From Halorientalis salina (GTDB lineage: Archaea > Halobacteriota > Halobacteria > Halobacteriales > Haloarculaceae), in the NCBI RefSeq assembly GCF_005049285.1, contig NZ_SOSC01000003.1:186001-250000 (forward strand): a stretch of DNA of 64,000 nt. Direction: 5' to 3'. Position 1 is the stretch's first letter. Each line of letters starts with the position of its first letter. The position numbers and the translations under genes are program-made. Shown here in pieces: positions 23,340 through 46,645 of the stretch. The notes beneath the pieces are model-generated. The model did not search any database, had not been told where the DNA came from, and worked only from the letters and a program-made list of their open reading frames with translations.

Positions 23340-24011
23340 ATGTACGATAAATCGATCCTCGCCAAGAGTACTGGCGCATCGCTCGGTGTGGTCGCCGTCG
23401 TCGGCATGCTCTTTTTGAGCACCGGCACGGCGTTCGCCGCACCGATTTCGGGTATCGGCGGATTCAAGATTCAGGCCGAAGAGATCCAGGGTGACGACTT
23501 CATCCTGTATCCCGGCTCTGGTGACGCGGAGAACATCTCCCAGTACCCGCAGGGTATCGTCGAGCTGAACAGCGTCACGATCACGGACCTCACGCTGATC
23601 AAGCGCTTCAACCTCGATCAGTACGGGATGACGGGCAACGCGCGCCTCGTCATTACCGCCGGTACGAGCACTGACGTCACGTCCGGGCAGCTGCTCCTGA
23701 AGACGCCCGAACTGGAAGCTGACTCCGCCGCGTTCAACGGCCTGACGATCGACGAGGCCAACGCGAACGAGAGCAAGGCGGGCATCAAGCAAGTGATCAC
23801 GCTGCGCGCACCCGAGGCCCCGACGCAGGGCGACGTCGCAGGTGGCCCGCGCCAGGTTACCCTCGACGGCGGTGACGGGAACCCCGGCCTCGTTCTCCAG
23901 GGCGCGAACATCCGTGCGACCTACCTCGCGACCAACGAGATCACGCTGCCGGACCTCGGTCTGGAAGTTCAGTTCGACCCGAACAACGACGGCACGTACG
24001 AGTACGCGTAA
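23340..24011 (+). CDS. exported DUF6230-family protein
   Basis: A 223-residue protein. The N-terminus MYDKSILAKSTGASLG leads into one hydrophobic segment ending in a signal-peptidase-like AFA site (about residues 10-33), so the protein is exported or N-terminally anchored. The mature part is predicted beta-rich and matches what I recall of the actinobacterial DUF6230 family. Matching pieces are LLLKTPELEADSAAFNGLTI, GNPGLVLQGANIRATYLA and a final amphipathic strand. It ends with the acidic FDPNNDGTYEYA, a Ca2+-loop-like signature shared with its paralogues. The next gene encodes a DUF6114-type membrane protein, the same pairing seen in Streptomyces. Function unknown; some database labels such as cholesterol esterase have no support here. 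Confidence 0.75.
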   Translation: MYDKSILAKSTGASLGVVAVVGMLFLSTGTAFAAPISGIGGFKIQAEEIQGDDFILYPGSGDAENISQYPQGIVELNSVTITDLTLIKRFNLDQYGMTGNARLVITAGTSTDVTSGQLLLKTPELEADSAAFNGLTIDEANANESKAGIKQVITLRAPEAPTQGDVAGGPRQVTLDGGDGNPGLVLQGANIRATYLATNEITLPDLGLEVQFDPNNDGTYEYA

Positions 24012-24030
24012 CGTCGTTCCACTAACCGCG

Positions 24031-24040
24031 AATTTTTTTA
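24031..24040 (+). promoter_or_regulatory. A/T-rich element between DUF6230 and DUF6114 genes
   Basis: The string aattttttta lies about 30 bases before the DUF6114 ATG. It could be a T-run terminator for the upstream gene, a TATA-like box for the downstream gene, or both. Confidence 0.35.
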
Positions 24041-24068
24041 GTACAACAACCGCATACAGACAAACACA

Positions 24069-24560
24069 ATGTCCGTAAAATCAGCACTGTGGCACGCGCT
24101 TCCGACACCGGTTCAGCGACGACTCGACGACCGCATCGCCAAGTTCAACGACTGGCGTGAGCCGCGCCCCTTCTGGGGAGGGGTGTTGCTCATGCTCGGG
24201 GGGTTGATCATCGGCTGGGTCCCGATCCAGTTCGCGACGGAGCTCGCCGTCATCGGCGGTGCGTTCACCGTCATCGGGCTCGTATTCGCCGTGCTGGTGT
24301 TCCTGACCGGGGCGTTCGTCCTCGCTCGGCCGGAGATGTCTACCATCTTCGGCGTCCTCGGGATCGCGCTGTCGATCCTGTCGCTCGTCGGGGCACTGGG
24401 CGGCCTGTTCGTCGGAATGTTGCTCGGGATCGCTGGCGGGAACCTCTGTATCGCCTGGCAGGATCCCAACCCCGGGACGACGACCAGCACCAGTACGAGT
24501 ACCAGTAGCTCCGCGAGTGCGAACGAGGACGTGCAGTTCAGTTGGCAGGGCGAACAGTAA
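24069..24560 (+). CDS. DUF6114-family four-helix membrane protein
   Basis: A 163-residue protein. A basic N-terminal stretch carries the family signature EPRPFWGG (about residues 32-40). Four hydrophobic helices follow (about 40-58, 62-85, 92-110, 112-130), with the Gly-rich GGLFVGMLLGIAGGNLCIAW at the end. A Thr/Ser-rich tail ends in VQFSWQGEQ. An F-x-W-(Q/E) tail recurs in paralogues in this window. The protein is probably the membrane partner of the adjacent exported DUF6230 protein. No catalytic residues are visible, and the role is unknown. Confidence 0.75.
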   Translation: MSVKSALWHALPTPVQRRLDDRIAKFNDWREPRPFWGGVLLMLGGLIIGWVPIQFATELAVIGGAFTVIGLVFAVLVFLTGAFVLARPEMSTIFGVLGIALSILSLVGALGGLFVGMLLGIAGGNLCIAWQDPNPGTTTSTSTSTSSSASANEDVQFSWQGEQ

Positions 24561-24691
24561 GCCGGCAGGCGTCACGTCGGCGTAGTGGCGCTCCGTTTTC
24601 GCCCGCACCATCGCCGCCACGTGCTGATTTTCGGCGGTTTTCCGTTTCGATCCTGGTTCGACGTGTCACGGCCAGCGACCAAGCTGGAAAG

Positions 24692-24718
24692 AATATAAGT
24701 GGCCGTTCATGACCGGCG
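24692..24718 (+). promoter_or_regulatory. shared promoter-like element, copy B
   Basis: The sequence aatataagt followed by ggccgttcatgaccggcg aligns with the elements at 23058 and 26779. Here the gene starts about 100 bases downstream. The TATA-like core is the clearest of the three, and the second block is the most divergent. Confidence 0.45.
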
Positions 24719-24819
24719 TAATCTTGAGTGGGAATTAGGTAATTATCTACGGTAGACAGTCACGCCTTTGGACGGGCATGGGAAGAGCGCCCGGGGTGGG
24801 GTGTGGCCAAACACGAACT

Positions 24820-26559
24820 ATGTATAATCGTAAACGCGTTGCACGAGGAGCAGGCACTGCTATCGCGGTCTGGGCACTTCTGGGGTTGTTTATCGTCTCG
24901 ACGGGGGTCGCCTACGCATTACCGCTGGCCGGGGTCGGGGGGTTTACCATCACGGCTGACGAGGTGCAAGCCGACAATCTGCTCCTGTATCCCGGTGTCG
25001 GGGACACGAGCGAGCGGGACGCCTACCCCCAGACCATCGCAGAGCTGGAGGGGACGACGATCACGGACCTGACGGCGTCGAAGACGATCGGTCTGGATTC
25101 GACGCCGGGACTGTCCGGGAAGTTCCGCGTCAGTATCGTCTCACAGGGGGAAAGCGACGGGTCCGCACTGCTGTTGAAATCGAGTGCACTGCAGTCCAGC
25201 AGTGCCGAGTTCACTAATTTCTCGATCGAAGAGATGGCCTCGGACGACCCGCGGGGCCGGTTCGAGCTCGAATCGAACGGACCGGTAACGCTCGGCGGGA
25301 CCGGTCAGTACCCCGTTCGGATTCGCGCACACTACGTGGCGCTCAACTCCGTGTCCACGCCGAACCTCGGCCTCAGGGTCTGTTACGACCCGGACAACGA
25401 CGACGAGTACGAGTACGGGTCCTGCGACGGCTCGCTGCCGGACTGGGGGAGCAATCCCGACATGGGCGAGAACCAGGCGCCCAAGGCCGTTGCGTTCGCG
25501 GAGCCGATTCCGGCGGAAATGGGCGAAACGATTACCTTCGACGCCTCGTCGTCGTACGATCCCGACGGCTCTGTCGAGTCCTACGAGTGGAGCTTCTCCG
25601 ACGGAACGACGACGAACGGGAAGACTGCGACGCGCTCGTACAGTTCCACCGGTGACTACGAGGTGACGCTAACGGTGACCGACGACGACGGCAAATCCGG
25701 CTCGGACACCGTCACCGTCACTGTGGGGAACCAGGCACCGACGGCCGACGCGTCGGCTGACAAGACGACGGTCATCCCCGACGAGACGGTCACGTTCGAC
25801 GGGTCAGGGTCCAGCGATCCCGACGGCAGTATCGAGTCCTACGAGTGGGACTTCGGTGATGGGACGACCGCGGTGGGCGAGAGTCGAACCCACTCGTACG
25901 ATTCGACGGGGACGTACACGGCGACGCTGAACGTGAGCGACGACCTCGGGATTTCGGACACGGACACCATCGATATCGACGTCGTCCAGAACGAACCGCC
26001 GACGGCCAGCGCGTCCGTCGACGACGCGGAACCGAACCCCGGCGAGACGGTCACGTTCGACGCCTCCGAGTCGTCGGACGACACCGGCCGGATCACGTCC
26101 TACGAGTGGGAGTTCGGCGACGGAACCACCGCGACCGGCGATACACCGACACACGCCTACAGTTCACCGGGAACCTACGAGGCCACGGTGACGGTGACTG
26201 ACTCGGGCGGCCTGACCGAGACGGAGACGGTGACGGTCGACGTGAACGAGGTACCGACGGCGAGCTTCACGAGGAACCCGACATCGGGTAACGAGGACAC
26301 CACGTTCACGTTCAACGCGTCCGGATCGTCCGACCCCGACGGCTCCATCGTCTCCTACGAGTGGAGTCTCGAGGAAGACGACTGGTTCGACAACAGCGCG
26401 ACTGCCAGCGGTGAGGTCATCGAGAAGCAGTTCGAAGTCGTCGACATCGAAAGCACCAAGACGTTCGACGTCACGCTGACGGTCACCGACGACAACGGCG
26501 CGACTGATTCGGTGACGAAATCGGTCGACGTCGACAACTGTTACCTCGACATCTGCTGA
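24820..26559 (+). CDS. DUF6230-type exported protein with four PKD-like repeats
   Basis: A 579-residue surface protein. MYNRKRVARGAGTAI is followed by a hydrophobic segment ending in AYA (about residues 10-34) and then a DUF6230-like domain to about residue 205. That domain closes with YDPDNDDEYEYG flanked by Cys residues. Four tandem beta-sandwich PKD domains follow, each with an SYEW(S/D/E)F(S/G)DG-type core; the fourth is divergent. No C-terminal membrane helix or PGF-CTERM signal is present, so anchoring would be N-terminal or through partners. The internal ATG at 24820 is preferred because all paralogues begin MY(N/D). No DUF6114 gene follows directly; the nearest is 2.4 kb downstream. 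Confidence 0.75.
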   Translation: MYNRKRVARGAGTAIAVWALLGLFIVSTGVAYALPLAGVGGFTITADEVQADNLLLYPGVGDTSERDAYPQTIAELEGTTITDLTASKTIGLDSTPGLSGKFRVSIVSQGESDGSALLLKSSALQSSSAEFTNFSIEEMASDDPRGRFELESNGPVTLGGTGQYPVRIRAHYVALNSVSTPNLGLRVCYDPDNDDEYEYGSCDGSLPDWGSNPDMGENQAPKAVAFAEPIPAEMGETITFDASSSYDPDGSVESYEWSFSDGTTTNGKTATRSYSSTGDYEVTLTVTDDDGKSGSDTVTVTVGNQAPTADASADKTTVIPDETVTFDGSGSSDPDGSIESYEWDFGDGTTAVGESRTHSYDSTGTYTATLNVSDDLGISDTDTIDIDVVQNEPPTASASVDDAEPNPGETVTFDASESSDDTGRITSYEWEFGDGTTATGDTPTHAYSSPGTYEATVTVTDSGGLTETETVTVDVNEVPTASFTRNPTSGNEDTTFTFNASGSSDPDGSIVSYEWSLEEDDWFDNSATASGEVIEKQFEVVDIESTKTFDVTLTVTDDNGATDSVTKSVDVDNCYLDIC

Positions 26560-26884
26560 CGGCTTCGAGACAGGGCCACCTGCTCGCCAGTTTTCGCCTG
26601 TTGTCCTGTATTGACGCACTGAGCCACTGGCCCACCGGGTACGCTGCCCGTGTTTCGAAGTGTCTATCTCAGACCAGGTCGACGGTGGTGGCCGCTGCCG
26701 GATGTCCCACCGGGTGAGGTCGAGTCACCGGTCATCCGAGGACGTATAGAGTTGTTCTCAAATCTTCACGGCTGAAATAATATAATAGACCGTCAGTATC
26801 CGGGGATATATTAAACCAGTATTGTGGGAAATCAGGTCACGGAAACGAGTTGCGGGCCTGGGAATCCCGCAGGGAGCGACAAAC
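26560..26884. other. non-coding spacer with promoter element
   Basis: About 325 bases without a gene. It contains promoter-like copy C and two further AT-rich stretches (ataatataatag and gatatattaaacc), unusual for this GC-rich region. No hairpin terminator stands out after the preceding gene. Confidence 0.45.
26779..26806 (+). promoter_or_regulatory. shared promoter-like element, copy C
   Basis: The sequence aatataatag followed by accgtcagtatccgggga is the closest relative of copy A; the string tatccgggga is identical. The gene starts about 80 bases downstream. A second TATA-like gatatattaaa follows immediately. Confidence 0.5.
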
Positions 26885-28837
26885 ATGTACAATCGGACAC
26901 GCGTAGCGAGGGGTACAGGGGCCGCCGTTGCGGTGTGGGCACTCGTCGGGTGGATCGTCATCTCGACGGGGGTCGCATACGCACTGCCACTGGCTGGCAT
27001 CGGCGGGTTCACGATCACCGCCGAGGAGGTCACGGCGGACAGTCTCCTTCTCTATCCGGGAGTAGGTGATACCAGCGAGCGGGACGCCTATCCACAGACG
27101 ATCTCGGAGTTACAGAACACGGATCTGGTGGATCTGGCCGTAACGAAGACGATAGACCTGAATTCGACGCCCGGGTTGTCCGGGAATCTCCGTATGGATC
27201 TCGTGTCGCAGGGGCAGACGACTGGAACGTCCGTCGTCTTGAAATCGAGCGTATTACGCTCCGAAGGGGCCGCCTTCGAGCAGTTCGAGATCAGAGAGCT
27301 GAACTCCTCGGACACGTTCGGGCAGTTCGAGATCGAGTCGGGCGGCCCGGTGACGCTGGGCGGGTCCGGGAGCGAACCGGTGAAGATTCGGGCGCACTAC
27401 CTGGCGACGAACTCGATTTCGGTCTCGAACCTCAAACTCGGGGTCTGTTACGATCCGGACGACGACAGCGACTACGAGTACGGATCGTGTATGAGCACGC
27501 CGCCGAACTGGGGGAGCAATCCCGACATGAGCGACAACGAGGCACCGACGCCGGTCGCGGACGCGGCACCGAACCCGATCGTGGTGAACGAGACCGTGAG
27601 CTTCGACGGGTCGTCGTCGTACGACCCCGACGGCTCGGTCGAGTCCTACGAGTGGACGTTCGACGGCGGGACGACCACGACCAGCGTGACGACCGAACGC
27701 ACGTACACCGAGCCCGCGAACTACACGGTCGACCTGACCGTGACCGACGACGACGGGGCGACCGCGACGGAGACGGTCACCGTCGTCGTCGAGAGCAAGG
27801 ACCCGACCGCGAGGCCGGACGCCAACCGGACGTCGGTGATCACCGAGGATTCGATCGCGTTCGACGGGACGAACTCCTCGGACCCGGACGGGGAAATCGT
27901 CTCCTACGAGTGGGAGTTCGGCGACGGACGGAACGCTACCGGCGCAACGGCCACGCACGCGTACGATTCACCGGGCGAGTACACGGTGAACCTGACCGTC
28001 CACGACGACGACGGCATCAGGGACAGGGGCACACTCACCGTCACTGTCGACTCGAACACGGCCCCGACCGCGAACGCGACGGCCAACAGGACGTCGGTGA
28101 TCGCCGGCGATCCGATCGCGTTCGACGGGACAGGGTCGTCGGACTCGGACGGCACCATCGAGTCCTACGAGTGGGACTTCGACGATAACACGACCGCAAC
28201 GGGGCCGACGCCGACACACGCCTACGATTCGACTGGCAACTACACTGCCACGCTGACGGTGACCGACGACAAGGGCGCAACCGCAACCGACACCGTCGAG
28301 ATTACGGTCGACACCAATTCGGCACCGACTGCGTCCGCGACTGCGAACCGGACCTCGGTGCTGACCGGTGACTCAGTCGCGTTCGACGGGACGGGGTCGT
28401 CGGACTCGGACGGCACCATCGAGTCCTACGAGTGGGACTTCGGCGACAACACGACCGCAACAGGGGCAACGCCGACACACGCCTACGATTCGACTGGCAA
28501 CTACACCGCGACGCTGACGGTAACCGACGACAAGGGCGCAACCGCGACCGACACCGTCGACATCACCGTCGAGTCGAACACGGCCCCGACCGCGAACGCG
28601 ACGGCGAACCGGACCACAGCCGCGGTCAACGAGACTATCGCGTTCGACGGGTCCGGGTCATCTGACTCGGACGGTACCATCGCGTCCTACGAGTGGACGT
28701 TCGACGACGGAACCACCGCGACGGGGGTCGACCCCACCCACGCGTTCGACGCGACCGGCAACTACACGGTGACGCTGACGGTGACCGACGACGACGGCGC
28801 GACCGCGACCGACGCCGTCGAGATCACCATCGAGTAG
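26885..28837 (+). CDS. DUF6230-type exported protein with five PKD-like repeats
   Basis: A 650-residue paralogue of the preceding gene. The N-terminus MYNRTRVARGTGAAV, the hydrophobic export segment ending in AYA, and the DUF6230-like domain (to about residue 210, closing with YDPDDDSDYEYG) are all conserved. Five PKD domains follow. The last three are tandem units of 87 residues, each with several N-glycosylation sequons (NRT, NTT, NYT), and they are nearly identical at DNA level. No C-terminal anchor is visible. Two DUF6114-type membrane genes follow 77 bases downstream. A role as a glycosylated surface stalk is inferred. Confidence 0.75.
   Translation: MYNRTRVARGTGAAVAVWALVGWIVISTGVAYALPLAGIGGFTITAEEVTADSLLLYPGVGDTSERDAYPQTISELQNTDLVDLAVTKTIDLNSTPGLSGNLRMDLVSQGQTTGTSVVLKSSVLRSEGAAFEQFEIRELNSSDTFGQFEIESGGPVTLGGSGSEPVKIRAHYLATNSISVSNLKLGVCYDPDDDSDYEYGSCMSTPPNWGSNPDMSDNEAPTPVADAAPNPIVVNETVSFDGSSSYDPDGSVESYEWTFDGGTTTTSVTTERTYTEPANYTVDLTVTDDDGATATETVTVVVESKDPTARPDANRTSVITEDSIAFDGTNSSDPDGEIVSYEWEFGDGRNATGATATHAYDSPGEYTVNLTVHDDDGIRDRGTLTVTVDSNTAPTANATANRTSVIAGDPIAFDGTGSSDSDGTIESYEWDFDDNTTATGPTPTHAYDSTGNYTATLTVTDDKGATATDTVEITVDTNSAPTASATANRTSVLTGDSVAFDGTGSSDSDGTIESYEWDFGDNTTATGATPTHAYDSTGNYTATLTVTDDKGATATDTVDITVESNTAPTANATANRTTAAVNETIAFDGSGSSDSDGTIASYEWTFDDGTTATGVDPTHAFDATGNYTVTLTVTDDDGATATDAVEITIE
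28055..28834 (+). repeat. three tandem 261-base units encoding PKD domains
   Basis: The string gactcggac recurs at 28142, 28403 and 28664, giving an exact 261-base (87-codon) period. The first two units match closely over the whole length and the third is more diverged. This indicates recent in-frame duplication. Confidence 0.8.
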
Positions 28838-28913
28838 TTGGCGACCGCGTCGGGAGCTCCCTCGTCGTGCTTGTCGAAAGACAAAAGCGGATTGAGGTTC
28901 CACGTTCGGAGGA

Positions 28914-29519
28914 ATGGGACCGTTGTCAGGAGGGGGTTCGACGCTGGGGGAGTGGGCAACCGACCCGCGGGGGGAGTTTCGGCGGTGGCGGCAACCCCGG
29001 CCGATGCTCGGCAGTTCGCTGCTGGTTCTCGGTGGCCTGTTGATCGGGTACGTTCCGGTCCAGTTCACTTCGGAGCTGATGCTCATCGGCGGGGCCTTCA
29101 CCATCCTCGGAATGATGTTCGCCGTGCTGGTGATGTTCTGTGGCCTGTCGGCGCTGGCGAAACCCGAACTGTCGTCGATCTTCGGCGTGCTCGGGATCGC
29201 GCTCTCGACGCTGTCGCTGTTCGGCGCGCTCGGCGGGTTGTTCGTCGGCATGATGGTGGGCACGATGGGCGGAATCCTCTGTTACGCCTGGGAACCACCG
29301 GAGGGCCACGAGTACGAAGAAACCACCCTGGCCGAGGCCTCGGGGTTCATCTGGCAGGAGACCGGCGGGTTCATCTGGCAGAGTTCCCAGGGGTTCATCT
29401 GGCAGACCGACGACGAGACCGACACCGACGCGGCGACCACTGACACCGACGCCGATGCCGATTCGACGGGGTCGGCGGACGACGACGAGTTGTCCCTCGA
29501 AGACAAGTACAAGCTATGA
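28914..29519 (+). CDS. DUF6114-family membrane protein with triplicated GFIWQ tail
   Basis: A 201-residue protein. The N-terminal 30 residues are soluble and end in RQPRPMLGSS, the degenerate form of the family's RPFWGG signature. Four hydrophobic helices fill about residues 32-130 (including GALGGLFVGMMVGTMGGILCYAW). The C-terminal tail carries GFIWQ three times at an eight-residue spacing (about residues 145-165) and then an acidic Asp/Thr-rich stretch. A GGAGG ribosome-binding-like sequence lies just before the ATG. The stop overlaps the next start (ATGA). It is the likely membrane partner of the PKD protein encoded upstream. Confidence 0.75.
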   Translation: MGPLSGGGSTLGEWATDPRGEFRRWRQPRPMLGSSLLVLGGLLIGYVPVQFTSELMLIGGAFTILGMMFAVLVMFCGLSALAKPELSSIFGVLGIALSTLSLFGALGGLFVGMMVGTMGGILCYAWEPPEGHEYEETTLAEASGFIWQETGGFIWQSSQGFIWQTDDETDTDAATTDTDADADSTGSADDDELSLEDKYKL

Positions 29520-29947
29520 GCGGCGGTCGCGACGGGGTCGAGGCGGTCCGCCTGTGGTGGCAGGGATTCAGCCGGTGGCGCCGTCGCAGGCCGTTCTGGG
29601 GCGGGACGTTGCTCGTCCTCTCGGCGCTTTTCACGGGCTACCTGCCGGCCGCGTACGACCGGTTCCTCTTCTTTCCGACCGGGTCGTTCACGACGACCGC
29701 CGTCCTGTTTGCCGTGTTGCTCTTGCTCTGTGGAGTCACGGTGCTTACCTTCCCCGCGGCGTCCGGTCTCGTCGGCTTCCTTGGAATGCTGCTCTCGACG
29801 CTGGCGCTATTGGGCGCGCTCGGTGGGTTCCTCGTCGGGACGGTGCTCGGTGGCCTCGGCGGCGTCCTCAGTTTCGCCTGGACACCACCTGACGAGACTC
29901 GGCGGTTCAGTTGGGAGGACGACGCGGCCGATTCGGGCCCGGAGTGA
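29516..29947 (+). CDS. second DUF6114-family membrane protein
   Basis: A 143-residue paralogue translationally coupled to the preceding gene. It has the intact RRPFWGG signature near residue 25, four hydrophobic helices, and a GALGGFLVGTVLGGLGGVLSFAW C-terminal helix. The tail ends RRFSWEDDAADSGPE, again with an F-x-W-(Q/E) motif. Two adjacent DUF6114 genes suggest a heteromeric membrane unit. The convergent DUF5781 gene ends only two bases away. Confidence 0.75.
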   Translation: MSGGRDGVEAVRLWWQGFSRWRRRRPFWGGTLLVLSALFTGYLPAAYDRFLFFPTGSFTTTAVLFAVLLLLCGVTVLTFPAASGLVGFLGMLLSTLALLGALGGFLVGTVLGGLGGVLSFAWTPPDETRRFSWEDDAADSGPE

Positions 29948-44254: not shown

Positions 44255-44923
44255 ATGTACGACAACAAACGATTAGCCAGCGGCGTTGGCGTGTTACTCA
44301 CGCTGTGGGCGCTCGTTGGGCTACTGGTGATGAGTTCCGGGGTGGGGCTCGCTGTCTCGGCACCGTTGTCTCCGTCCGGAGGATTCGTCGTCGAGGCGAA
44401 TTACCTGGGTGCGGAGGAATCGGTATCGACGGCGTCGACGACTGAGACGACGGGTGTGCCCGCGGCGAAGTTCGAGGTCACGAAGAGTTACGCCGAGTAC
44501 CTGAAGCTGATGAAGACGCTGGACGTGAGCACCGTACCCGGCCTCAACGGGCAGATCAGGTTACTGATACAGAGCGATACGGCCACGCTACAGGGCGTGA
44601 CGTTCAGGACGAACGACCTCACGGCGAGTACGGCGCGCTGGCGCGGGTTCGTCCTCGACGAGCGAAACGAGGAGTCGCGGTTCGACCAGTTCTACTCCTA
44701 CGCGGGCCCGAACCCCGAGGAGGCGCCCAACACGGACGACGAGATGGAGGTGGGCGGAAGTACGCCGGGTGCGGTGAAAAAGAGCGAGGAGCCCGGCTTC
44801 CAGTTGTACAACACGCGAATCGAGATGTCGAGTCTGACTGCCGATCAGGTCACGCTGTCGAACCTCGACCTGCGCGTGCAGTACGACCCCGACGGCGACG
44901 GAACCTACGAGTATGGCACGTAA
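44255..44923 (+). CDS. exported DUF6230-family protein, second locus
   Basis: A 222-residue paralogue. It starts MYDNKRLASGVGVLL, followed by one hydrophobic segment (about residues 10-33) and a beta-rich ectodomain. Conserved pieces are PSGGFVVEANYLGAEE, VPGLNGQIRLLIQSDT and the closing QYDPDGDGTYEYGT. It is shorter than the PKD forms and has no added domain. Its stop overlaps the next start by eleven bases, so it is translationally coupled to a fusion protein carrying both a membrane module and an ectodomain. Confidence 0.72.
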   Translation: MYDNKRLASGVGVLLTLWALVGLLVMSSGVGLAVSAPLSPSGGFVVEANYLGAEESVSTASTTETTGVPAAKFEVTKSYAEYLKLMKTLDVSTVPGLNGQIRLLIQSDTATLQGVTFRTNDLTASTARWRGFVLDERNEESRFDQFYSYAGPNPEEAPNTDDEMEVGGSTPGAVKKSEEPGFQLYNTRIEMSSLTADQVTLSNLDLRVQYDPDGDGTYEYGT

Positions 44924-46184
44924 CGACGACACGACTCCGACCGGGCACGACGGAACGGACACGGACGAGCGCGCTGGGCGGCCAGTCCGCAGCCGATTCA
45001 GCGAGTGGATCGCGACGCGACCGGCAGCGGGGGCGGCCCTGCTCGCGCTCGGCAGTTCGGTGCTCGCCTGGCAGGCGGTGAGCCTGCTGGCGAGCGTTCC
45101 CGGGGGTACCGTCACGCTGGCAGGGGTTGCTGGCGTGGCAGCGCCCGTATTCGCTGTCGTCGTCGCGCTGTTCGCGCTCGGCCGTCCGGACTACTCGACC
45201 GTCGCCGGACTGGTCGGGGGGAGTATCGTCCTCCTGGACGTCGTCGGGATGATGTACGCACCGACGCCGATCGAGTATCCGCAACTGGTCGTGTCCGCGT
45301 TGCTCGTCGCGGGCATCGGTGGCGTGCTCTGTGTCGGCTGGCGAGCCGGTGGCCCGACCGTCGAGTTCGGTCGGATCGATGATGTGTTCAGCCACGGTCG
45401 GTCGCTGCTGGTCGTCGGGCTGGTGGTCCTGCTGGCGTTAAACGGTGCCCCGGCCGTGACGGCCCAGGAGAAGGTGCCCCAACAGCAGGGCGCACTCGGC
45501 GGGCTGGTCCTCGATCAGGGGACGCTCGCCGCGGGCTTTTACAGCTATCAGGCCAGCTGCCCGAAACCCAAGGACCCGCTGATCACGCTGGGCGAGGACG
45601 AGCCGTGTCTGGACGCCACCGTCGATTCGAGCGAGCGGGCGTCGGGCTCCATCGACCGGGTCGCACGCCAGCAACTCGACAGCGCGCTGGGAAAGAAGGT
45701 GCTCATCGACGACTTCCTCATCTTCAAGAACTTCTACAATCCCGATCAGGACAAGTTCGAGCACGTCGAACTCTCGGCGACGCAGGCCATCGCCGAGACC
45801 GACGACGGCGAGGACCCCCGAGCGGTGTCGGTGTACATCTCCGAGTACCGCGCCGAGAACAACGAAGCCCGGCTGAACCTCGTCGACATCCCGCTCATCG
45901 AGGACCCCGGGATCAAAGTCGACAACGTCAATTACTGGACCTGCACCCCGCAGAACGAGTCCGGGCAAGGCAGCATCAACGACATCCGGTTCGGGATCGA
46001 CTCGGACCCGACGCTGACCGGGGGTAAGGACGCGACGCTACTCGCGCACCAACTGGGCAGCACCCAGACGACGCTGACGAACTTCAAACTGAAGGTCAGG
46101 CCGGGCAAGCGCGACCGGCCCGTCGCCGACGCCGATCCCACTGACCCGCCGTCGAACTGTCTGGAGGGGACGATTACGGATTGA
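44913..46184 (+). CDS. fusion of DUF6114-like membrane module and DUF6230-like ectodomain
   Basis: A 423-residue protein. The N-terminal part has the ATRPAAGAALLALG form of the DUF6114 signature and four hydrophobic helices (about residues 38-145). A fifth hydrophobic helix (LLVVGLVVLLALNGAPAVTA, about 165-185) leads into an exported domain of about 235 residues. That domain contains KVLIDDFLIFKNFYNP, STQTTLTNFKLKVRPGK and three or four Cys residues, and it resembles the DUF6230 family more remotely. The helix before the ectodomain looks like the signal/anchor of the stand-alone DUF6230 proteins. The assignment of both halves is inference from local patterns. Confidence 0.6.
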   Translation: MARNDDTTPTGHDGTDTDERAGRPVRSRFSEWIATRPAAGAALLALGSSVLAWQAVSLLASVPGGTVTLAGVAGVAAPVFAVVVALFALGRPDYSTVAGLVGGSIVLLDVVGMMYAPTPIEYPQLVVSALLVAGIGGVLCVGWRAGGPTVEFGRIDDVFSHGRSLLVVGLVVLLALNGAPAVTAQEKVPQQQGALGGLVLDQGTLAAGFYSYQASCPKPKDPLITLGEDEPCLDATVDSSERASGSIDRVARQQLDSALGKKVLIDDFLIFKNFYNPDQDKFEHVELSATQAIAETDDGEDPRAVSVYISEYRAENNEARLNLVDIPLIEDPGIKVDNVNYWTCTPQNESGQGSINDIRFGIDSDPTLTGGKDATLLAHQLGSTQTTLTNFKLKVRPGKRDRPVADADPTDPPSNCLEGTITD

Positions 46185-46645
46185 TGAAGGTGCCTTCGCT
46201 TGCGGCCACCGAGCGTGGAGATGGAACCGTGACTGATGCCGACACCCCCGGAACGACAGGGAGTTCGACGGAGGAGACGATCACCTTCGCGGAGTGGCGA
46301 GCGGCGCGGCCGTTCTACGGCGGACTGGCGCTCATCGTCGGCGGGCTCGTCATCGCCTGGCCCTCGGTACAGTTCCTGCTGCAGGCGAGCATGCTCCAGC
46401 ACCAGTCAGTCGTCAGCCTGGGGGTAATCGTCGGCGCGCTGATCGTCTTCCTGGGCGTCGCCGCGTTGCTGCGACCCGAACACTCGACGGTGATCGGTCT
46501 GGCCGGACTGATCCTGGCGACGGCCTCGTTCGTCGTCGCGTTCGGCGGCCTGCTCGTCGGGATGTTCGTCGCCAGCGCCGGCGGAATCCTCTGTTTCGCC
46601 TGGCGACCGTCCGGGGAGTCGCTGCCGCTGGCAGGTACTGAGTAA
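46184..46645 (+). CDS. DUF6114-family membrane protein, second locus
   Basis: A 153-residue protein. The family signature appears as AARPFYGG (about residue 42), followed by four hydrophobic helices ending with the Gly-rich GGLLVGMFVASAGGILCFAW. The short tail ends ESLPLAGTE and lacks the F-x-W-(Q/E) motif of the first locus. The ATG overlaps the upstream TGA by one base; a TTG three bases earlier is possible. It is the likely partner of the two preceding proteins. Confidence 0.72.
   Translation: MKVPSLAATERGDGTVTDADTPGTTGSSTEETITFAEWRAARPFYGGLALIVGGLVIAWPSVQFLLQASMLQHQSVVSLGVIVGALIVFLGVAALLRPEHSTVIGLAGLILATASFVVAFGGLLVGMFVASAGGILCFAWRPSGESLPLAGTE

Follow-up and report, generated by a model that had tools for sequence, protein, structure and literature searches.

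Genes and family assignments at the two loci

The window, a stretch of 64,000 nucleotides from Halorientalis salina, carries nine genes in two loci (g1-g9), every one of them on the + strand. In locus 1 (23340-29947), three genes for exported proteins of the DUF6230 type lie together with three for DUF6114 four-helix membrane proteins, in the order g1 (DUF6230), g2 (DUF6114), g3 and g4 (DUF6230 with PKD modules), g5 and g6 (DUF6114). Locus 2 (44255-46645) has the order g7 (DUF6230), g8 (a fusion of both domains) and g9 (DUF6114). The features are as follows:

23340..24011, + strand: g1, exported DUF6230 protein, 223 aa, without PKD (PF19741, E=1.8e-9; AF2 model)
23973..24008, + strand: acidic DxDxDG-type loop of g1, C-terminal (FDPNNDGTYEYA)
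24069..24560, + strand: g2, DUF6114 four-helix membrane protein, 163 aa, RPFWGG (PF19609, E=4.7e-27)
24820..26559, + strand: g3, exported DUF6230 base with 4 PKD modules, 579 aa (g1 profile, 3e-73; PKD_4, 1.6e-82)
25384..25419, + strand: acidic loop of g3 at the DUF6230/PKD boundary, Cys on both sides (YDPDNDDEYEYG)
25471..26556, + strand: PKD region of g3, 4 modules (Pfam)
26885..28837, + strand: g4, exported DUF6230 base with 5 PKD modules, 650 aa (g1 profile, 2e-71; PKD_4, 2.6e-119)
27449..27484, + strand: acidic loop of g4, Cys on both sides (YDPDDDSDYEYG)
27536..28834, + strand: PKD region of g4, 5 modules (Pfam)
28914..29519, + strand: g5, DUF6114 membrane protein, 201 aa, RPMLGS variant, tail repeat (PF19609, E=3.2e-22)
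29346..29402, + strand: tail of g5, predicted cytosolic, three F-I-W motifs with exact 8-residue spacing
29516..29947, + strand: g6, DUF6114 membrane protein, 143 aa, RPFWGG, tail RRFSWEDD (PF19609, E=1.6e-22)
44255..44923, + strand: g7, exported DUF6230-type protein, 222 aa (g1 profile, E=2e-58)
44882..44917, + strand: acidic DxDxDG-type loop of g7 (YDPDGDGTYEYG)
44913..46184, + strand: g8, natural DUF6114-TM-DUF6230 fusion, 423 aa (DUF6114 profile, 1e-21; hhalign)
46181..46645, + strand: g9, DUF6114 membrane protein, up to 154 aa, RPFYGG (PF19609, E=1.3e-22)

For g3 and g4, the better start positions are 24820 and 26885, each at a conserved MYN; the g3 reading frame could open earlier, at 24778. 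The two proteins are paralogues with 66.5% identity within the DUF6230 domain. Overlapping frames are found in both loci, namely 4 bp between g5 and g6, 11 bp between g7 and g8, and 4 bp between g8 and g9.

An earlier note, written by a model from the sequence alone, had assigned these proteins to DUF6230 and DUF6114, and HMM searches found similarity above the cut-off for both families. g1 scores 38.5 bits with PF19741 (DUF6230; cut-off 27.5), and g2, g5, g6 and g9 reach 79.6-95.2 bits with PF19609 (DUF6114; cut-off 27.9). The remaining proteins were assigned with local profiles: PF19741 fails to reach g3, g4 and g7, which are recovered by the iterated g1 profile, and g8 matches PF19609 only weakly (0.016, below cut-off), with a clear match to the local DUF6114 profile. 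A model for either family was not found in NCBIfam.

The MY(N/D) start, the single export helix and the acidic C-terminal loop described in the earlier note are all present in g1, g3, g4 and g7. In g1, the export helix with its AxA site lies ahead of the segment APISGIGGF, and the mature domain is all-beta in the AF2 model (pTM 0.60). The DxDxDG-type loop, which resembles a calcium site and may bind metal, was found in 25 of 71 family members, compared to 0.7 (maximum 4) in shuffled sequences; at this frequency, it is a lineage feature rather than a family-wide one.

In the AF2 model of the g2 DUF6114 domain (pLDDT 83, pTM 0.76), an amphipathic helix is followed by four TM helices (residues 18-39, 41-71, 73-94 and 99-113). 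Most invariant positions of DUF6114 hold W, R, P, G, F, L or A, and the alignment shows no catalytic residue that is conserved. The RPFWGG signature ascribed to the membrane proteins is exact solely in g2 and g6, and is replaced by RPMLGS in g5, RPFYGG in g9 and TRPAAG in g8. A search for a known fold returned p22phox (7u8g_B) as the best DUF6114 match (E=0.32, TM 0.58), which we took as generic four-helix resemblance. Scans of viral contigs yielded no relatives, and a viral origin was rejected.

F-x-W motifs occur in 18 of 63 DUF6114 tails, compared to 1.7 in shuffles, and essentially in Halorientalis alone, which places them outside the family definition. They are also seen in the predicted cytosolic tails of g2, which carries QFSWQGEQ, and g6, and orthologues of g5 repeat the motif three to four times with exact 8-residue spacing, with four copies in several Halorientalis. 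It is possible that the motif is a docking site for a cytosolic partner.

Locus 2 had been described as repeating the theme of locus 1. This is true for g7 and g9, but g8 is a natural fusion in which four DUF6114-like helices are followed by a fifth TM or export-like helix and a DUF6230-like domain that is predicted to be extracellular. In hhalign, the C-terminal domain of g8 aligns with the DUF6230 profile colinearly and over its full length (95.1%, E=3e-8). Similar fusions are present in L012 and in L015, L017, L019 and L027 (L numbers denote the loci compared), and three subtypes of natural fusions were seen.

Co-occurrence, gene order and modular expansion

Co-occurrence of the two families in haloarchaea is near-perfect. 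Among 243 Halobacteriales genomes, 31 encode DUF6114, and DUF6230-like proteins were detected in 30 of these 31 and nowhere else, leaving one genome with DUF6114 only and none with DUF6230 only (Fisher 1e-37, a value that ignores phylogeny; the pair-bearing genomes are spread over five families). The lone DUF6114-only genome is a draft, 64% complete, with a weak match. The DUF6230 profile used here derives from proteins encoded beside DUF6114 and could therefore overlook DUF6230 lineages that lack this partner, so the search was repeated with PF19741 as an independent check. Pfam's own model placed 17 genomes above its cut-off, all 17 of which encode DUF6114 (hypergeometric 5e-18). In a control search of Haloferax volcanii, neither family was above cut-off. 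Beyond Halobacteriales, the archaeal phylum gave only weak matches to DUF6114, and DUF6230 was absent in the four such genomes that were checked.

Reading the loci directly, we found a DUF6230 domain upstream and on the same strand for 56 of 62 distinct DUF6114 domains, with a median gap of 125 nt between the two domains and often overlapping reading frames. The six exceptions are four orthologous 680-aa multi-TM proteins, a locus lying at the end of a contig, and a Rhodococcus pair that PGAP does annotate as adjacent. The converse relationship is looser, and the two families do not match one to one in number: a DUF6114 gene is missing near several DUF6230 genes (L002, L056, L057, L067), and in L058 and L064 a single DUF6114 gene is preceded or flanked by DUF6230 genes in arrays of six (L058) or more.

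The 680-aa exceptions include a protein of the source genome itself (C16, L003:6119-8161), which consists of three repeated multi-TM units and a C-terminal DUF6114 domain. An NDFTNTVIM-like motif recurs in this protein, of which Pfam sees only the DUF6114 part. Orthologues are present in L010, L011 and L013, and none of the four loci has an adjoining DUF6230 gene.

The source genome contains seven DUF6230 and six DUF6114 matches in total. A stand-alone DUF6230 gene on another of its contigs encodes a copy 89% identical to g1. The closest DUF6114 relatives (80-83%) come from Halorientalis species, in whose loci DUF5781 and EF-2 come after the cluster; rps12-rps7 come before it in those loci that include the left flank. 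A DUF6230 gene also lies after rps7 in another family (L015, L017, L019, L027).

The multiplication of the pair and its extension with PKD modules, both pointed out before, were borne out, and within the window PKD modules are confined to g3 and g4. More generally, DUF6230 forms an N-terminal base onto which modules are grafted, namely PKD in g3 and g4, an inserted PA14 in L065 and GEVED/CARDB in L060. The L060 protein is the largest DUF6230-based protein (3348 aa, with GEVED and CARDB), and further long extensions were seen in other relatives. Giant proteins of about 3345 aa with an N-terminal DUF6230 domain are encoded in small-genome haloarchaea (L060:586-10629 and L062:23-10054), and one of these proteins has GEVED/CARDB.

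Relatives in bacteria and comparison with known systems

DUF6230 and DUF6114 are already known by name as a pair in Actinobacteria, both listed as domains of unknown function, and PGAP annotates them as adjacent on three Rhodococcus plasmids, in agreement with the earlier note; the bacterial evidence for the pair consists of these plasmids and of papers. In the actinobacterial pair (PF19741/PF19609; Rhodococcus WP_146034255 and WP_102799378), the families are the same, DUF6230 comes first, and the frames are adjacent or overlapping. The source genome differs in its multiplied copies, PKD-extended DUF6230 proteins, DUF6114-DUF6230 fusion, DxDxDG loops and F-x-W repeats, the latter predicted to be cytosolic. 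The open-access literature searched yielded a single incidental mention of the pair. New here are the near-perfect haloarchaeal co-occurrence, the existence of fusions, the expansion into modular proteins and tandem arrays, the conserved export helix and a link to the Geobacillus proteins P21 and P16. The pair was also said to have no assigned function; indeed none is established, but published leads exist in P21/P16 and in a Streptomyces 'cholesterol esterase'.

P21 and P16 are alkane-induced membrane proteins of Geobacillus thermoleovorans B23, whose induction is stronger with longer chains (PMC2676291). Both are N-terminally processed, yet are found in the insoluble membrane fraction, a term that in this study refers to insolubility after sonication (PMC2676291). 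We scored the published peptides against a DUF6230 profile built from haloarchaeal sequences only. Peptides P21-N, P21-37 and P16-N reached 16.6, 9.5 and 7.0 bits, respectively, and none of 2000 shuffles of each scored as high; three further P21/P16 peptides gave no clear score. The N-terminus of P21 maps to the start of the mature domain and P21-37 to the last beta strand near the C-terminus, whereas the N-terminus of P16 aligns directly after the invariant Ala33 of the profile. P21 and P16 therefore belong to the DUF6230 family. As in the window proteins, their mature N-termini (AFPLSGVGGF and VPISGVGEF) match the start of the mature domain, but at 201 and 196 aa they lack the PKD modules of g3 and g4. 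The sequenced mature N-termini further show that P21 and P16 lose the export helix and nevertheless remain in the membrane fraction.

Haloarchaeal proteins anchored by archaeosortase (PGF-CTERM) or through a lipobox are likewise exported surface proteins with PKD/CARDB-type modules. In contrast to these, the exported window proteins have neither a lipobox nor a C-terminal hydrophobic anchor: g1, g3, g4 and g7 possess a hydrophobic stretch at the N-terminus only, no lipobox was found in their first 50 residues, and no C-terminal hydrophobic stretch, as in a PGF-CTERM anchor, was present. The PG matches of g1 and g7 fall within the domain. The export helix is unusually well conserved, with a mean identity of 58% versus 42% for the mature core, and is the more conserved part in 261 of 264 distant pairs. 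The control, a neighbouring family of exported proteins with only four distinct sequences, has the reverse pattern, with the mature part better conserved.

Proposed membrane docking and alternative explanations

The earlier note proposed that the membrane partner exports, anchors or assembles the beta-rich protein. Among these three alternatives, docking or anchoring is the one we favour. The exported proteins have no lipobox or C-terminal anchor, homologues are retained in the membrane fraction, and DUF6114 is nearly always encoded next to a DUF6230 protein; docking by DUF6114 is the simplest reading of this combination. We thus lean, with moderate confidence, towards a two-component display system with DUF6114 as the membrane dock, and perhaps also the escort, of DUF6230 proteins. 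In this reading, g1, g3, g4 and g7 would be exported via the N-terminal helix and probably cleaved at the AxA site that immediately precedes the conserved [AV]P[LI]xGxGGF segment; for g1, the mature chain is predicted to begin near A34. The DUF6230 beta domain would then remain by the membrane as a base onto which outward-reaching modules can be grafted. DUF6114 (g2, g5, g6 and g9) is predicted to span the membrane with four helices and to keep both termini in the cytosol. It might recognise its cognate DUF6230 protein by the export helix, the GGF segment or both, hold this protein, and perhaps also escort and assemble it at the membrane. Such docking would substitute for a lipid or C-terminal anchor, and g8 would combine both components within one chain. 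The direct contact between the two proteins, their topology and the membrane retention in Halorientalis are what we infer from these sequences and models. Several observations count against the docking reading, namely the DUF6230 genes that stand alone or share one DUF6114 gene, and the 680-aa DUF6114 group, which is without adjoining DUF6230 in four loci. In addition, the Streptomyces 'cholesterol esterase' is reported to be extracellular, which, if it is a family member, argues against permanent retention.

Some of the same observations would suit a DUF6114 protein that serves as a transient escort, that is, a membrane chaperone or export factor required for translocation or folding of the DUF6230 protein, with the latter then released or entering the envelope independently. 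The genes are adjacent with DUF6230 translated first, the many-to-one arrays of L058 and L064 fit a shared helper, the export helix is unusually conserved, and the Streptomyces enzyme was reported to be extracellular. However, the permanent DUF6114-TM-DUF6230 fusions speak for a lasting association and P21/P16 stayed in the membrane fraction, and we consider a purely transient role rather unlikely. A lipid- or hydrocarbon-handling pair, with DUF6230 as the protein that binds or passes on a hydrophobic ligand and DUF6114 as the partner that docks it at the membrane, would account for the chain-length-dependent alkane induction of P21/P16 (PMC2676291), and SCO5420, a 'cholesterol esterase' and candidate DUF6230 member, is up about 37-fold on Tween. 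We nevertheless regard this as quite unlikely. There is no fold match to lipid-binding proteins, as Foldseek with the DUF6230 model returned nothing from the PDB at E<=1e-3 (moderate AF2 query, pLDDT 65) and LolA was the best PDB sequence match at E=0.95; the adhesion-type modules (PKD, PA14, CARDB) point to surface display; and the Halorientalis loci adjoin conserved translation genes, not lipid metabolism.

The actinomycete enzymes also raise the question of whether DUF6230 is a secreted esterase with DUF6114 as an accessory, which we judge very improbable. P21 and P16 were reported to resemble the exported Streptomyces lavendulae cholesterol esterase at the N-terminus (PMC2676291; Nishimura & Sugiyama 1994), and a novel actinomycete cholesterol esterase family has been described (Xiang et al. 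2007, cited in PMC4098958). DUF6230 has no catalytic residue conserved across the family: in an alignment of 22 diverse members, only G41 is invariant, M, G, A, F, Y and P are found at near-invariant positions, and no Ser, His, Asp, Glu or Cys is conserved that could form a catalytic site. The Geobacillus authors themselves dismissed an esterase identity of P21/P16. Our results suggest that 'cholesterol esterase' annotations near the DUF6230 family should be re-tested.

Returning to docking by DUF6114, we tentatively extend it to a wider proposal, which could well prove wrong: DUF6114 might be a dedicated non-covalent membrane receptor for DUF6230-based surface proteins, common to haloarchaea, Actinobacteria and Bacillota. 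With the same reserve, one might speculate that this route is separate from lipidation and from sortase/archaeosortase anchoring, and that different lineages graft different adhesive modules onto it. If true, distant prokaryote groups would hold surface proteins by means of a membrane partner, not a lipid or sortase anchor. Taken together, the P21/P16 biochemistry, the fusions and the giant modular proteins give a specific hypothesis that can be tested, for a pair so far named only as domains of unknown function.

In Natrinema-type loci (L005, L025, L029, L030, L051, L053), a third exported family with the motif VTVEFGSIEGGTVCAQQL is encoded after DUF6114, and this family may be part of the DUF6230/DUF6114 system. 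Twin-arginine (Tat-like) motifs, such as SRRRF and TSRRLF, are present in the DUF6230 export signals of L032, L034, L014, L058, L059 and L064, and those of Halorientalis and Natrinema are without them. Due to this uneven distribution, the export route may differ among lineages.
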